From Marinitoga piezophila KA3 (GTDB lineage: Bacteria; Thermotogota; Thermotogae; Petrotogales; Petrotogaceae): DNA of 64,000 bases. The stretch is taken from the NCBI RefSeq assembly GCF_000255135.1, contig NC_016751.1, forward strand, positions 1,860,001 through 1,924,000. Reading direction: 5' to 3'. Of the stretch, positions 1,001 to 47,152 are shown piece after piece. The notes below the pieces were generated by a model, which searched no databases, was not told where the DNA came from, and worked only from the letters and a program-made list of their open reading frames with translations. The position numbers and the translations under genes were made by a program. The first letter of the stretch is position 1. Each line of letters begins with the position of its first letter.

Positions 1001-1180
1001 AAAAATAAAAACGAACGAAAACTCGCAGGTTGCCCGAGAAAATCACGAATGGAGGCTGTCAAAAAAACAGGATGTTTTTTTGAGCGCAGCTTCTGCAGGG
1101 ATGCAGAATCTAAGCGACAGCCGGGAATGAGTGATTTTCGAGGATCAGCAACCAAGTTGTTTGAGGGAGTTTTTATTTTT
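1001..1180 (+). ncRNA. Structured element E1: candidate GGA-hairpin RNA (CsrA-binding?)
   Basis: An outer imperfect inverted repeat pairs 1001-1046 with 1131-1180. Inside it, GGCTGTC (1054-1060) pairs with GACAGCC (1116-1122). That stem encloses two perfect hairpins: 1061-1081 (8 bp, loop AGGAT) and 1091-1108 (6 bp, loop AGGGAT). The same layout with different stem bases occurs on the minus strand at 46703-46887, which is compensatory change. From 1051 to 1394 the plus strand has 11 GGA triplets and only one TCC. GGA in hairpin loops is the CsrA recognition signature, and csrA is in this window. An alternative reading is a miniature mobile palindrome. Function is inferred. Confidence 0.5.
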
Positions 1181-5947: not shown

Positions 5948-5985
5948 AAAATGGGGCATTTATGATAGCCCCATTTTATTTTTTG
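5948..5985. terminator. Shared bidirectional terminator, chemoreceptor / csrA
   Basis: AAAATGGGGC (5948-5957) pairs with GCCCCATTTT (5968-5977), with T-runs on both sides, placed between convergent genes. It overlaps the csrA stop codon. Confidence 0.85.
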
Positions 5986-6215
5986 CTTTTATCGAAAATA
6001 TTTTTTAAACCTGAAATATCCTCTACACGTGTAGCAGAAATATTTTCTTTCATAATGCTATCATAAACCTCTTCACGGTAGATCTTAAAGTCTTTTGGAC
6101 CATCAAATCCCAATTTTATTGCATTCCCTTCAACAGATAATACCTTTAATTTTAAAATTTTATTGTCTATCATTATTGTTATACCTTCATCTATTTTTCT
6201 TGATAAGACTAACAT
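5976..6215 (-). CDS. csrA: Carbon storage regulator / translational regulator CsrA
   Basis: A 79-residue RNA-binding homodimer that represses or stabilises mRNAs by binding GGA in hairpin loops near ribosome sites. It opens MLVLSRKIDEGI, contains LKVLSVEGNAIKLGFDGP, and ends in a short charged helix, all typical of CsrA. I chose the ATG at 6215 rather than one six codons upstream because GAAAGGGGTG sits properly before it and the family begins MLVLSR. The start lies one base past the fliW stop codon, so translation is coupled to fliW, its protein antagonist. The flagellin leaders at 22.9 and 24.2 kb carry likely binding sites. Confidence 0.95.
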   Translation of the reverse strand: MLVLSRKIDEGITIMIDNKILKLKVLSVEGNAIKLGFDGPKDFKIYREEVYDSIMKENISATRVEDISGLKNIFDKSKK

Positions 6216-6216
6216 A

Positions 6217-7197
6217 TCACGCACCCCTTTCATTATCAGGTGCCTGATTTTTAAGTATTTTGTCGCTTCTTTCTATTTCTTCTTTTACATTGTGTTTTAA
6301 ATGATATTCATCATTGTCTAAAATTAACTGGACACCTTTTTTATTTATTTTTGAGATAATAAGAGGAGCTTTTAAATTGACTGTTATATTGTCTGGATCG
6401 CCCTGAGGAATGGTCATAATTGCAAATATCTGAGCATCTTCTGGTTTGGAAATCTCGAGATATTCAACCATGTCTTTTGGTAAATCAAATGTGTAATCCA
6501 CACGTACAAGTACCGGATCAATTACAGGGAATGAAATAGCTTCATCTTCAAGTGATAAAAGCCATTGTATAGGGAATGTATCTTTTGAAAAGTGTATATA
6601 AAACTTTTTGAGGTTTTCAAATCCGGGAATTCCAAATTCAAATGTAATTACATCTTCATCTGCAATTTCCAATTCTCCAAATCTTGTATTGTATTTTTTC
6701 TTTTTTTCAGTGAATTTTGAAACTTCTTTTATCTGCCTTTCAAGCATTTTCTGGCTTAATAATATCTCATCATTAACGCTATGTTTTACTGAAAGATTTT
6801 CATCGTCTAATATATACTGTAAACCTTTATTTGTTTTTTTGGATATTACCAGAGGAGCTTTTAAATTTACAGTTGCATTTTCAGGATTTTCCTGAGGTAT
6901 AGTCATAATGGCAAATAATGCAGCATCTTCTGGTGAGTCTATTCCAAGTGTTTTTACAACATTTTCAGGAATCTTTGCAACATAATCAACCTTTATTAAT
7001 TTTGGATCTATAATAGGAAATGCAACAAGTTCATCTTCCAGTGATAATAGCCACATTATTGGATAAGTATCCTCTGCAGTTAATATAACGAATTTTTTTA
7101 AATTTTCAAATCCAGGAATACCTTTATCAAAAACTATTACTTCGCTATCATCTACTTCAATTTCTCCTATACGTGTTTTATACATTTTTAATGCCAC
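6217..7197 (-). CDS. fliW: Flagellar assembly factor FliW, tandem two-domain form
   Basis: FliW binds flagellin and CsrA and releases CsrA repression when flagellin is exported. The family is normally about 150 residues, one domain. Here 326 residues hold two complete copies, about 5-150 and 168-310. Each begins with an R-G-E-(I/L)-E strand, then GIPGFENLKKF, WLLSLEDE, D(Y/F)-type strand, PEDA..FAIMTIPQ and NLKAPL(V/I)ISK. The two copies are clearly related but not identical. The GTG start at 7197 is preferred over an ATG four codons on, because AGGGGGAAAG has correct spacing only for GTG. It lies 14 bases after flgL and one base before csrA. The fusion is the odd feature; what the second copy does is unknown. 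Confidence 0.93.
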   Translation of the reverse strand: MALKMYKTRIGEIEVDDSEVIVFDKGIPGFENLKKFVILTAEDTYPIMWLLSLEDELVAFPIIDPKLIKVDYVAKIPENVVKTLGIDSPEDAALFAIMTIPQENPENATVNLKAPLVISKKTNKGLQYILDDENLSVKHSVNDEILLSQKMLERQIKEVSKFTEKKKKYNTRFGELEIADEDVITFEFGIPGFENLKKFYIHFSKDTFPIQWLLSLEDEAISFPVIDPVLVRVDYTFDLPKDMVEYLEISKPEDAQIFAIMTIPQGDPDNITVNLKAPLIISKINKKGVQLILDNDEYHLKHNVKEEIERSDKILKNQAPDNERGA

Positions 7198-22731: not shown

Positions 22732-22758
22732 TAAAGTCCCCAGAAAAAATGACGAAAT
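22732..22758 (+). promoter_or_regulatory. Sigma-28-type promoter, distal, for flagellin 1
   Basis: TAAAGTCC at 22732 and GACGAAAT at 22751-22758 have the 15-base gap between TAAA and the second box that is typical of FliA promoters (TAAA-N15-GCCGATAA). The second box matches at five of eight positions and is identical to that of the promoter 100 bases downstream. Confidence 0.55.
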
Positions 22759-22831: not shown

Positions 22832-22858
22832 TAAAGTAAAAAAAATTTCCGACGAAAT
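22832..22858 (+). promoter_or_regulatory. Sigma-28-type promoter, proximal, for flagellin 1
   Basis: TAAAGTAA at 22832 and GACGAAAT at 22851-22858 with the same 15-base gap. The start would lie near 22866, giving a leader of roughly 55 bases that includes the GGA hairpin at the ribosome site. Confidence 0.65.
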
Positions 22859-22902
22859 ATATTGTGAACACAAATTGAGATGAAAATAAAAAATTAAATA
22901 AA

Positions 22903-22920
22903 TTTCACACGGAGGTGGAA
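22903..22920 (+). promoter_or_regulatory. Likely CsrA-binding hairpin over the flagellin 1 ribosome site
   Basis: TTTCAC (22903-22908) pairs with GTGGAA (22915-22920), leaving the loop ACGGAG, which holds the Shine-Dalgarno GGAG. GGA in a hairpin loop over the ribosome site is the established CsrA target structure, as in the hag leader of Bacillus subtilis. Confidence 0.6.
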
Positions 22921-22922
22921 TT

Positions 22923-24110
22923 ATGAGAATTTATCACAACATTGAGGCTTTAAACACATGGAGGACTATGAGTAATGTAAAAGCTGACATGAGTAAATCA
23001 TTGGAAAAGTTATCATCTGGTTTAAGAATCAACAGAGCAGCAGATGATGCAGCAGGATTGGCAATCTCTGAAAAGATGAGAAACCAGATAAAGGGTTTAG
23101 ATACAGCAATTAGAAACGCACAGGATGCCATTTCAATGATTCAAACAGCAGAAGGTGGATTGGACGAAGTTCATTCAATTCTTAAGAGAATGAGAGAACT
23201 AGCAGTACAGGCATCAACAGATACAAACACAGATGCAGATAGGGTACAGCTACAGAATGAATTTACAGAATTAAGAGACGAAATCAATAGAATAGCAAAA
23301 ACAACACAGTTCAACACAAAGAATTTATTAGATGGATCATTAAGAGGAACAAGAAATGCAGATGCAAAGATAGTAAATCCAGGTTCAGCACATTTTGCAG
23401 TAGGGGCATATTCTTCAGGAATTACAGCAGATGCTAATTTTGTAATGGAAGTTGGACAATTTACTGGTAATGCAGATTCTGAATTAGAAGTGAGAATTTG
23501 GAGAGTAGATTCAAACGGTAAAACAATGGTTACTACAAAAACAGTTACTGCTGGTTCTGCAAACGTAACAGTTGCCGGTGGAACAGCTAACGTTCAGATT
23601 ACCTGGGATACAACCCAGATTGCAAGAATTGAGGATTATGGTGGAACATTAGCAACAGGAACAAAGGTAGATGGTGGAGCAGTTGCTGTATACGGTAAGG
23701 TTTCCTCAGATGTAGATCCGTTAAATTACCATATAGGTGCAAATGAAGGTCAAACAATAACAATTGGATTTGAAAGTATGAAAGCTGATGATATAGGAAT
23801 TACAACTCAAATAAAGATTGATTCACAAAAAGATGCAGAATTTGCAATAAGTGCTATAGATGCTTCAATATATAAAGTATCAGCATTCAGGGCAAAACTT
23901 GGTGCAGCTCAAAACAGACTTGAACATACAATTAAGAACTTAGGAGTAGCATCAGAAAACTTAACAGCAGCAGAATCACGTATCAGAGACGCAGATGTTG
24001 CAAAGGTAATGGCAGAGTACACAAGGCAGCAGATCTTGTTGCAGAGTGGAACAGCAATGTTATCACAGGCAAATCAATTACCACAACAGGCTTTACAATT
24101 ATTGAGATAA
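22923..24110 (+). CDS. fliC: Flagellin 1
   Basis: A 395-residue filament protein exported by the flagellar type III system without a signal peptide. Conserved ends: N-terminal coiled coil with LSSGLRINRAADDAAGLAISEKMR and GLDTAIRNAQDAISMIQTAEG, and C-terminal LGVASENLTAAESRIRDADVAKVMAEYTRQQILLQSGTAMLSQANQLPQQALQLL. The middle (about 135-310) is the exposed variable part. It differs from flagellin 2 at only a dozen or so residues, nearly all in the terminal regions; the variable middle is identical. Expressed from tandem sigma-28-type promoters, with translation probably under CsrA/FliW control. Confidence 0.97.
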   Translation: MRIYHNIEALNTWRTMSNVKADMSKSLEKLSSGLRINRAADDAAGLAISEKMRNQIKGLDTAIRNAQDAISMIQTAEGGLDEVHSILKRMRELAVQASTDTNTDADRVQLQNEFTELRDEINRIAKTTQFNTKNLLDGSLRGTRNADAKIVNPGSAHFAVGAYSSGITADANFVMEVGQFTGNADSELEVRIWRVDSNGKTMVTTKTVTAGSANVTVAGGTANVQITWDTTQIARIEDYGGTLATGTKVDGGAVAVYGKVSSDVDPLNYHIGANEGQTITIGFESMKADDIGITTQIKIDSQKDAEFAISAIDASIYKVSAFRAKLGAAQNRLEHTIKNLGVASENLTAAESRIRDADVAKVMAEYTRQQILLQSGTAMLSQANQLPQQALQLLR

Positions 24111-24124
24111 TAAATAATATAATT

Positions 24125-24150
24125 TCGGGCGGAATCTTTCGCCCGATTTT
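24125..24150 (+). terminator. Terminator after flagellin 1
   Basis: TCGGGCG (24125-24131) pairs with CGCCCGA (24140-24146), followed by four T. The short T-run suggests possible partial readthrough to flagellin 2. Confidence 0.75.
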
Positions 24151-24160
24151 CTGCATAGAC

Positions 24161-24187
24161 TAAAGTTTTATATATTACCGTCGATTA
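24161..24187 (+). promoter_or_regulatory. Sigma-28 promoter for flagellin 2
   Basis: TAAAGTTT at 24161 and GTCGATTA at 24180-24187 with a 15-base gap between TAAA and the second box. The second box matches GCCGATAA at six of eight positions, the best FliA-type promoter in the window. Confidence 0.75.
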
Positions 24188-24195
24188 ATAATTTA

Positions 24196-24236
24196 GGGAG
24201 GATTCCCAAATCAAAACATTTCACACGGAGGTGGAA
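24196..24236 (+). promoter_or_regulatory. Paired GGA hairpins in the flagellin 2 leader (CsrA sites)
   Basis: Hairpin one: GGGA (24196-24199), loop GGAT, TCCC (24204-24207). Hairpin two: TTTCAC (24219-24224), loop ACGGAG, GTGGAA (24231-24236), identical to that before flagellin 1 and covering the ribosome site. Two GGA loops 20-30 bases apart fit dual-site binding by a CsrA dimer. Confidence 0.6.
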
Positions 24237-24238
24237 TT

Positions 24239-25426
24239 ATGAGAATTTATCACAACATGGAGGCATTAAACGCCTGGAGAACATTGAGTAATGTAAAGAC
24301 AAACATGGGAAAATCATTGGAAAAGCTATCATCTGGTTTAAGAATTAACAGAGCAGCAGATGATGCAGCAGGATTGGCAATCTCTGAAAAGATGAGAAAC
24401 CAGATAAAAGGTTTAGACACAGCAGTAAGAAATGCACAGGATGCTATCTCAATGATCCAAACAGCAGAAGGTGGATTGGACGAAGTTCATTCAATTCTTA
24501 AGAGAATGAGAGAACTAGCAGTACAGGCATCAACAGATACAAACACAGATGCAGATAGGGTACAGCTACAGAATGAATTTACAGAATTAAGAGACGAAAT
24601 TAACAGAATAGCAAAAACAACACAGTTTAACACAAAGAATTTATTAGATGGTTCATTAAAGGCAACAAGAAATGCAGATGCAAAGATAGTAAATCCAGGT
24701 TCAGCACATTTTGCAGTAGGGGCATATTCTTCAGGAATTACAGCAGATGCTAATTTTGTAATGGAAGTTGGACAATTTACTGGTAATGCAGATTCTGAAT
24801 TAGAAGTAAGAATTTGGAGAGTAGATTCAAACGGTAAAACAATGGTTACTACAAAAACAGTTACTGCTGGTTCTGCAAACGTAACAGTTGCCGGTGGAAC
24901 AGCTAACGTTCAGATTACCTGGGATACAACCCAGATTGCAAGAATTGAGGATTATGGTGGAACATTAGCAACAGGAACAAAGGTAGATGGTGGAGCAGTT
25001 GCTGTATACGGTAAGGTTTCCTCAGATGTAGATCCGTTAAATTACCATATAGGTGCAAATGAAGGTCAAACAATAACAATTGGATTTGAAAGTATGAAAG
25101 CAGATGATATAGGAATTACAACTCAAATAAAGATTGATTCACAAAAAGATGCAGAATTTGCAATAAGTGCTATAGATGCTGCAGTATATAAAGTATCGGC
25201 ATTCAGGGCAAAACTTGGTGCAGCTCAAAACAGACTTGAACATACAATTAAGAACTTAGGAGTAGCATCAGAAAACTTAACAGCAGCAGAATCACGTATC
25301 AGAGACGCAGATGTTGCAAAGGTAATGGCAGATTATACAAGACAGCAGATCTTGTTACAGAGTGGAACAGCAATGTTATCACAGGCAAATCAGTTACCAC
25401 AACAGGCTTTACAATTATTGAGATAA
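24239..25426 (+). CDS. fliC2: Flagellin 2
   Basis: A second 395-residue flagellin, same length and nearly identical to flagellin 1. Differences cluster in the first 40 residues (for example NMEALNAWRTLSNVKTNMGK), around residue 140, and near the C-terminus; the variable middle is identical in protein and almost so in DNA. It has its own sigma-28 promoter and a leader with an extra GGA hairpin, so the two copies may be expressed at different levels or times. The pattern speaks for a tandem duplication kept alike by gene conversion. Confidence 0.97.
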   Translation: MRIYHNMEALNAWRTLSNVKTNMGKSLEKLSSGLRINRAADDAAGLAISEKMRNQIKGLDTAVRNAQDAISMIQTAEGGLDEVHSILKRMRELAVQASTDTNTDADRVQLQNEFTELRDEINRIAKTTQFNTKNLLDGSLKATRNADAKIVNPGSAHFAVGAYSSGITADANFVMEVGQFTGNADSELEVRIWRVDSNGKTMVTTKTVTAGSANVTVAGGTANVQITWDTTQIARIEDYGGTLATGTKVDGGAVAVYGKVSSDVDPLNYHIGANEGQTITIGFESMKADDIGITTQIKIDSQKDAEFAISAIDAAVYKVSAFRAKLGAAQNRLEHTIKNLGVASENLTAAESRIRDADVAKVMADYTRQQILLQSGTAMLSQANQLPQQALQLLR

Positions 25427-46534: not shown

Positions 46535-46702
46535 ATCCTCCACCTCTCTTTTTATATAATTGTTATTTTTGTTGATAATTGAGAAAAATAAAAACTCCCT
46601 CAAACAAGCTGGTTGCTAATCCTCGAAAATTTTTTTTGAAAGTAGAAAAATAATATTCTCTCAGACGGCAAGAATTTCTAATCCTTGAAAAATTTTTGTG
46701 TT

Positions 46703-46887
46703 GGAAAAAATAAAAGCTCTTTCAGGCGACTTGAGTGCTAATCTTCGAAAATTGCTCGTTCTCAGGGGTCGTTGCAGACTCACATCCATGTTCGTCTTCA
46801 CTCAAAATCACATCCGTGTGATTTTGACCCCTTCCACTCGCAATTTTCTCAGGCACTCTGCGAGCCTTCACTCGCTTTTATTTTTTC
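46703..46887 (-). ncRNA. Structured element E2: candidate GGA-hairpin RNA
   Basis: Read on minus: outer imperfect arms (46887-46836 with 46757-46703), central stem GGGGTC (46831-46826) with GACCCC (46770-46765), hairpin one AAAATCAC-ACGGAT-GTGATTTT (46825-46804) directly stacked on it, and hairpin two with ACATGGATGT at the tip inside GAC-GA...GA-GTC (46796-46777). Same order as E1 with different stem bases. On 46581-46910 the minus strand has eight GGA against two on plus. Interpretation as a CsrA-binding RNA is inferred. Confidence 0.5.
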
Positions 46888-46943
46888 CAACTATCTTTAA
46901 TCCCCGCTGCGGGAAATTCTTAGTCTTCGCTCATATTATTTTT

Positions 46944-47021
46944 CTCAATCAACAACACAAAAGGACGAACATGGACGTGAGTCTGTAACGACCGGCGGGA
47001 ACGAGAATTTTTGAGGATTAG
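46944..47021 (+). repeat. 78-bp repeat, second copy of 1181-1258
   Basis: Begins CTCAATCAACAACACAAAAG and ends GAGAATTTTTGAGGATTAG; differs from 1181-1258 at only a few bases, for example ACATGGACGT in place of ACATGGATGT. It lies in the opposite orientation to the E2 core, unlike the arrangement at 1.0-1.26 kb. Confidence 0.85.
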
Positions 47022-47152
47022 CGTTCGAGTTGTCTGAATGAGTTTTTATTTTTCACAATTATAAGAAATTTCACCTGCTTGAATGAATCTTTTTATGAAG
47101 TTTTCTATAACGATATTTTTAAAGAACTTTTATTTTTTCAATTGCAACTTTT

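Follow-up and report, generated by a model that had tools for sequence, protein, structure and literature searches.

The two flagellin genes in the window (the whole 64,000-nucleotide stretch of Marinitoga piezophila KA3 DNA that was analysed) each carry a CsrA-type hairpin over the ribosome site, and to judge from sequence their leaders are very probably CsrA operators of a CsrA–FliW–flagellin partner switch, whose closest described form appears to be that of Campylobacter jejuni flaA. The leader finding is a real, conserved member of this known switch. Supporting the switch reading are the recurrence of the core motif in related flagellin leaders, the specificity of the pattern, compensatory change in a second site, the co-occurrence of csrA and fliW, and the residues of CsrA itself. 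What is novel relative to the known switch is a fused FliW, with a family of dispersed repeats, E, as a further lead. The flagellin region contains the following, with BS1 denoting the hairpin at the ribosome site and the sigma28 consensus behind the three promoter calls being one we take to be applicable here, so that start sites are putative.

22732..22758, + strand: sigma28-like promoter 1 of flagellin 1, pattern TAAA-N15-GACGAAAT
22832..22858, + strand: sigma28-like promoter 2 of flagellin 1, pattern TAAA-N15-GACGAAAT
22901..22922, + strand: BS1 hairpin at the flagellin 1 ribosome site, loop ACGGAG
22923..24110, + strand: flagellin 1, 395 aa, with Flagellin_N and Flagellin_C domains
24161..24187, + strand: sigma28-like promoter of flagellin 2, pattern TAAA-N15-GTCGATTA
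24196..24207, + strand: GGGA-GGAT-TCCC hairpin of flagellin 2, near the inferred mRNA 5′ end, not conserved
24218..24237, + strand: BS1 hairpin at the flagellin 2 ribosome site, loop ACGGAG
24239..25426, + strand: flagellin 2, 395 aa

Directly 5′ of both start codons stands TTTCACACGGAGGTGGAATT, and TTTCAC-ACGGAG-GTGGAA is located at 22903-22920 and 24219-24236, the two ends of the span 22903-24236 originally given. The original prediction of CsrA-type hairpins over both flagellin Shine-Dalgarno (SD) sequences is thereby borne out in sequence and coordinates, with loops that fit ANGGAN, contain the SD GGA and overlap the ribosome site as in members of the CsrA–FliW–flagellin switch. Its description of a six-base-pair hairpin was right as to position, sequence and loop, and wrong in implying six Watson-Crick pairs, there being five together with one G-U; extended outward, the flagellin 1 stem has 8 bp and that of flagellin 2 has 7. 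The minimum-energy fold of 24194-24238 contains both flagellin 2 hairpins (−10.6 kcal/mol, z −2.2), and the flagellin 1 hairpin also forms in its fold, the stability of the whole leader being ordinary (z −1.1 and −1.3).

The second flagellin 2 hairpin, GGGA-GGAT-TCCC, is present at 24196-24207 as had been claimed, and its position is close to the putative transcript start expected from the sigma28-like promoter at 24161. Its GGA lies 27 nt from that of BS1, a spacing that would suit a second site, but the loop departs from ANGGAN, none of the 16 other Marinitoga leaders examined has a counterpart, and 366 of 20000 shuffles of the 30-nt stretch yielded a GGA-loop hairpin with at least 4 pairs. 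As a CsrA-type site it is not supported, and it is weaker evidence than the SD hairpin.

The core motif is kept in close relatives, where its absence would have counted against the reading. The leader set comprised 38 regions from 19 related genomes, of which 37 were counted (L119, with its start outside the region, was excluded), and ACA[CT]GGAGGTG is found in 34 of the 37, the three without it (L125, L128 and L130) being divergent flagellins from three genomes. All 17 Marinitoga leaders, from 7 genomes, have the core; those at the primary locus (n=10) have BS1 stems of 7-8 pairs, and those of a third type of flagellin at a separate locus (n=7) have 2-4. The original claim that, if E1 and E2 are CsrA sponges, all arms of the circuit are in the window went too far: the genome has a third flagellin outside it (G000:C2:1600461-1601660), which shares the SD core. 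Its core reads ACATGGAGGTG with a stem of only two pairs, and no sigma28-like promoter was seen within 110 nt upstream.

Outside Marinitoga there is a second site, BS2, an ANGGAN hairpin 21-28 nt upstream (a range computed without L117), in 16 of the 17 leaders that carry BS1. Its loop is AAGGAA, ACGGAA, ATGGAA or AAGGAT and its stem varies, for instance GCCC/GGGC, ACCC/GGGT, GCCA/TGGC, GTCC/GGGC and CCC/GGG. In an alignment of 11 distinct rows, 97.7% of the BS2 cells are paired, two of the four pairs show change on both sides, and the covariation score was equalled by only 2 of 500 shuffles. No second ANGGAN hairpin is present in any of the 17 Marinitoga leaders, flagellin 2 having the non-ANGGAN GGA hairpin instead. 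For BS1 (23 distinct rows) only the two inner pairs form in every row, both of them invariant, and across six pairs the paired share of cells is 73.2%, so that outside Marinitoga the SD site rests more on sequence than on stem. This pairing figure, the weak structures predicted for the flagellin leaders at 55 °C (down to −2.5 and −1.7 kcal/mol) and the three leaders lacking the core were counted against the switch. Searched with a two-site leader covariance model, 33 of the 103 Thermotogota genomes give matches at E ≤0.01; of the matches from outside the family 12 were examined, and 8 of these proved to be flagellin leaders, the other 4 not. Six leaders (L120, L124, L126, L129, L131 and L134) have a further palindromic hairpin some 68-75 nt upstream of the start; these distal palindromes of sister-genus leaders lie near the expected 5′ end, and their sequence varies (CTCTAGCGCTAGAG, CTCTGGCGCCAGAG, TTCTTGGCCAAGAA).

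Could the stem alone control translation, as an RNA thermometer or by constitutive damping, with CsrA having no part? The 7-8 pairs of the Marinitoga SD stem and the weakening of predicted structure from 37 to 55 °C are what one would look for, yet several sister-genus leaders with 2-3 pairs keep an invariant loop core for which a thermometer has no need, and BS2, away from the SD, is retained as well, which leaves this explanation quite improbable. It is highly improbable that the SD hairpins are a by-product, devoid of regulatory role, of an extended Shine-Dalgarno GGAGGTG in AT-rich DNA: that sequence does fit the 16S tail and, loosely defined, SD-GGA hairpins with stems of at least 6 are present at 10 of the 321 genes sampled from the window's genome, but against the frequency of the core in flagellin leaders even a looser ACANGGANGT is found at just 4 of 813 other sampled genes (one divergent G003 flagellin may be among the 813), and the sister genera have their second ANGGA site.

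The hairpin by itself is thus not rare, and the notion that every SD hairpin is a CsrA site was rejected because loose hairpins are common. ANGGAN hairpins with stems of at least 6 number 14 within 464 kb of the window's genome (G000), 8 within 400 kb of G005 and 1 within 400 kb of G003. The ACANGGANGT core stands at the SD of 4 of 321 sampled genes in G000, two of the four being the window flagellins, of 2 of 244 in G005 and of none of 250 in G003; the other genes with it (peroxiredoxin-like, a QueT-like transporter in two genomes and a short frame) look like background. The longer CACANGGAGGTG, allowing at most one mismatch, has 3 matches in the window where 0.23 are expected, and across 21 family genomes its exact form has 29 matches and the reversed pattern 8. 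By place, 21 of these matches fall in flagellin leaders and one in that of fliD (G004); among the rest, gene names for all eight non-flagellin matches having been given by eye from translations, two are inside a reading frame resembling aspartyl-tRNA synthetase, two are 5′ of a TfoX-C-like gene, two are unclear, and the last falls in the leader of a secreted protein of 498 aa from the window's own genome (G000:C2:1012182). This dockerin-like secreted-protein gene (L145) has a sigma28-like promoter and a CACATGGAGGTG site, and may be a further CsrA target. The TfoX-C-like gene, in L155 (G019) and L156 (G020), has CACACGGAGGTG at its ribosome site, enclosed by a long possible stem, ACTGAAAA...TTTTCAGT.

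The two regulators, predicted to be in the window, are both present and adjacent.

5976..6215, − strand: CsrA, 79 aa from its ATG, PF02599, directly 3′ of fliW
6217..7197, − strand: FliW, tandem double-domain, 326 aa, two PF02623 domains

Of 103 Thermotogota genomes 78 have csrA, and the same 78 have fliW. By spacing and by eye R47, I54 and N58 of the window CsrA match R44, V51 and N55, of which R44 serves RNA binding and V51 and N55 serve FliW binding, the latter two being needed for it in C. jejuni according to PMC7829508. That the window fliW is a tandem double-domain gene went unmentioned in the original prediction; its two PF02623 domains score 257.7 bits against a curated cut-off of 25. 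Such a pair in a single frame is found in 7 of 7 Marinitoga and in none of 71 other FliW-bearing Thermotogota genomes, one of which has a second, partial FliW match on a separate contig. In a tree of the 14 domains with 7 single FliW proteins (from 7 of the family's 13 single-FliW genomes) the domains of the double FliW group together (99/96), the first domains forming one group (99/97) and the second doing so weakly (74/92), from which the simplest reading would be a single FliW duplication that predated Marinitoga diversification. The predicted structure of the double protein had a mean pLDDT of 49.8, too low for use.

From these elements we infer how the switch would work. A CsrA dimer would bind the SD-bearing ANGGA loop and block ribosomes; binding of FliW to CsrA would free the flagellin mRNA; and cytoplasmic flagellin would bind FliW, such that unsecreted flagellin would stop its own translation. 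In the related genera the ANGGA hairpin upstream would give the dimer its second hold, the arrangement of C. jejuni flaA. In Marinitoga, where that site is missing, there are instead a longer SD stem and a covalent FliW pair that might be able to clasp both sites of the CsrA dimer: two FliW are bound per CsrA dimer in C. jejuni (PMC7829508), and by analogy the fused pair could fill both FliW sites of one dimer.

The switch of hag/flaA type that had been proposed is supported by the SD hairpins, the fliW-csrA pair and the conservation of the leaders. PMC4894983 describes, for C. jejuni flaA, a leader with two ANGGA hexaloop hairpins 21 nt apart, one of them over the ribosome site, and FliW as an antagonist of CsrA, and its Fig. 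3 legend already includes the fliW-csrA context of two Thermotogales. Sister-genus leaders with two ANGGA hairpins match this closely, whereas Marinitoga differs in having an ANGGAN site only at the SD hairpin and a FliW that is a tandem fusion. With Bacillus subtilis hag, as presented in PMC6529632, Marinitoga shares the fliW-csrA pair and, as proposed here, SD occlusion by CsrA and titration of FliW by flagellin; the stoichiometry of Hag:FliW:CsrA-dimer given there is near 1:1:1, and unlike that of B. subtilis the Marinitoga FliW chain has two domains.

The E elements had been suggested to be CsrA sponges.

1005..1179, + strand: E1 repeat core, hairpins CAAAAAAACAGGATGTTTTTTTG (1060-1082) and TTCTGCAGGGATGCAGAA (1091-1108), GGA-GGA 29 nt
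46707..46881, − strand: E2 repeat core, hairpins at 46803-46826 (ACGGAT loop) and 46777-46796 (ATGGAT loop), GGA-GGA 28 nt

As a pair of sponge genes they do not hold up, both being copies of a dispersed repeat; the CsrA idea nevertheless gains pattern support, since that repeat carries paired CANGGANG hairpins, and CANGGANG hexaloops are described as high-affinity CsrA/RsmE targets (PMC4894983). The E regions of the window are 940-1300 and 46566-47106, with further copies in L166-L195 and L286-L303. E has 51 blast matches in the window's genome and at the DNA level occurs in all 7 Marinitoga genomes and in none of the other 14 genomes of the family. Its covariance model, built like the alignment from 27 of 30 representative copies, has matches in 13 of 103 genomes, all of which carry csrA, with at least 27 copies in three of them, the window's genome included, and weaker matches in G004, G032, G033, G035, G037 and G102. 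The branched structure is strongly supported, with change on both sides in 34 of 49 pairs and 93.9% pairing against 73.9% when shuffled, as tested on the sequences from which the structure was derived.

That E is a mobile DNA element of MITE or REP type, its hairpins serving transposition or replication and CsrA being uninvolved, has not far short of an even chance. E is probably mobile: like REP/MITE-like repeats its many copies are mostly intergenic, their orientation is mixed (34 of 51 placements have the upstream gene on the other strand, two copies being counted twice, in the window and L166 and in L188 and L211), and direct flanking repeats of at least 14 bp accompany 6 of 50 copies and none of the 50 controls, three or more of these repeats being terminator-like hairpins. 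In G005 copies stand between direct copies of apparent terminator hairpins (L237:4959-5129, L237:8940-9108, L249:6239-6410 and L249:9824-9992), an arrangement that looks as if E inserts into terminators, duplicating them. On the GGA strand the stems have 69 A-C cells and 33 G-T cells, unlike what constraint on RNA only would give; many of the A-C cells are confined to a few pairs that are unpaired in a subset of copies, and the excess at most leans against RNA-level constraint. Together with mixed orientation to genes and the signs of mobility it speaks against a sponge role. What an element of that sort leaves aside is that CA(N)GGA loops are kept in 49 of 51 Marinitoga copies for each hairpin, on unrelated stems; that 15 of 17 distant copies have ANGGA-loop hairpin pairs on yet further stems; and that in all 51 the more stable fold is that of the GGA strand. 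A model was given 17 of 20 further stretches, with L291, L293 and L304 left out, the last (from G035) lying at no match. Fixed loops on replaced stems, distant families included, are a strong signature of candidate CsrA sites.

Several GGA-loop hairpins are on one E strand, as in sponge RNAs, and between 940 and 1300 GGA outnumbers TCC by 10 to 1. E thus resembles RNAs of CsrB/RsmZ type in its multiple GGA hairpins with CANGGANG loops, and differs in being dispersed, multicopy and known here from DNA alone; the window had no Rfam match at gathering scores, so E1 and E2 match no described sponge family. The proposal that these probably mobile Thermotogota repeats are a built-in CsrA decoy, each copy giving a branched RNA with two CANGGANG hairpins, is accordingly put forward as a doubtful one; its GGA spacing of ~27-29 nt comes near the 21-28 nt seen in flagellin leaders with two sites.

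A literature search, covering mostly papers open without subscription, turned up no paper describing CsrA sites in the flagellin leaders of Thermotogota, fused or tandem FliW, or CsrA-decoy repeats. If E binds CsrA it would, to our knowledge, be the first mobile repeat known to decoy a global RNA-binding regulator from dispersed copies, the tens of copies per genome then acting as a sponge that sets the free CsrA available for flagellin repression, counterbalanced in Marinitoga by the two-headed FliW. The flagellin homeostasis switch is extended across Thermotogota, with compensatory evidence, and the natural two-headed FliW offers a test of whether CsrA dimers are normally inhibited at one or at both of their FliW sites.
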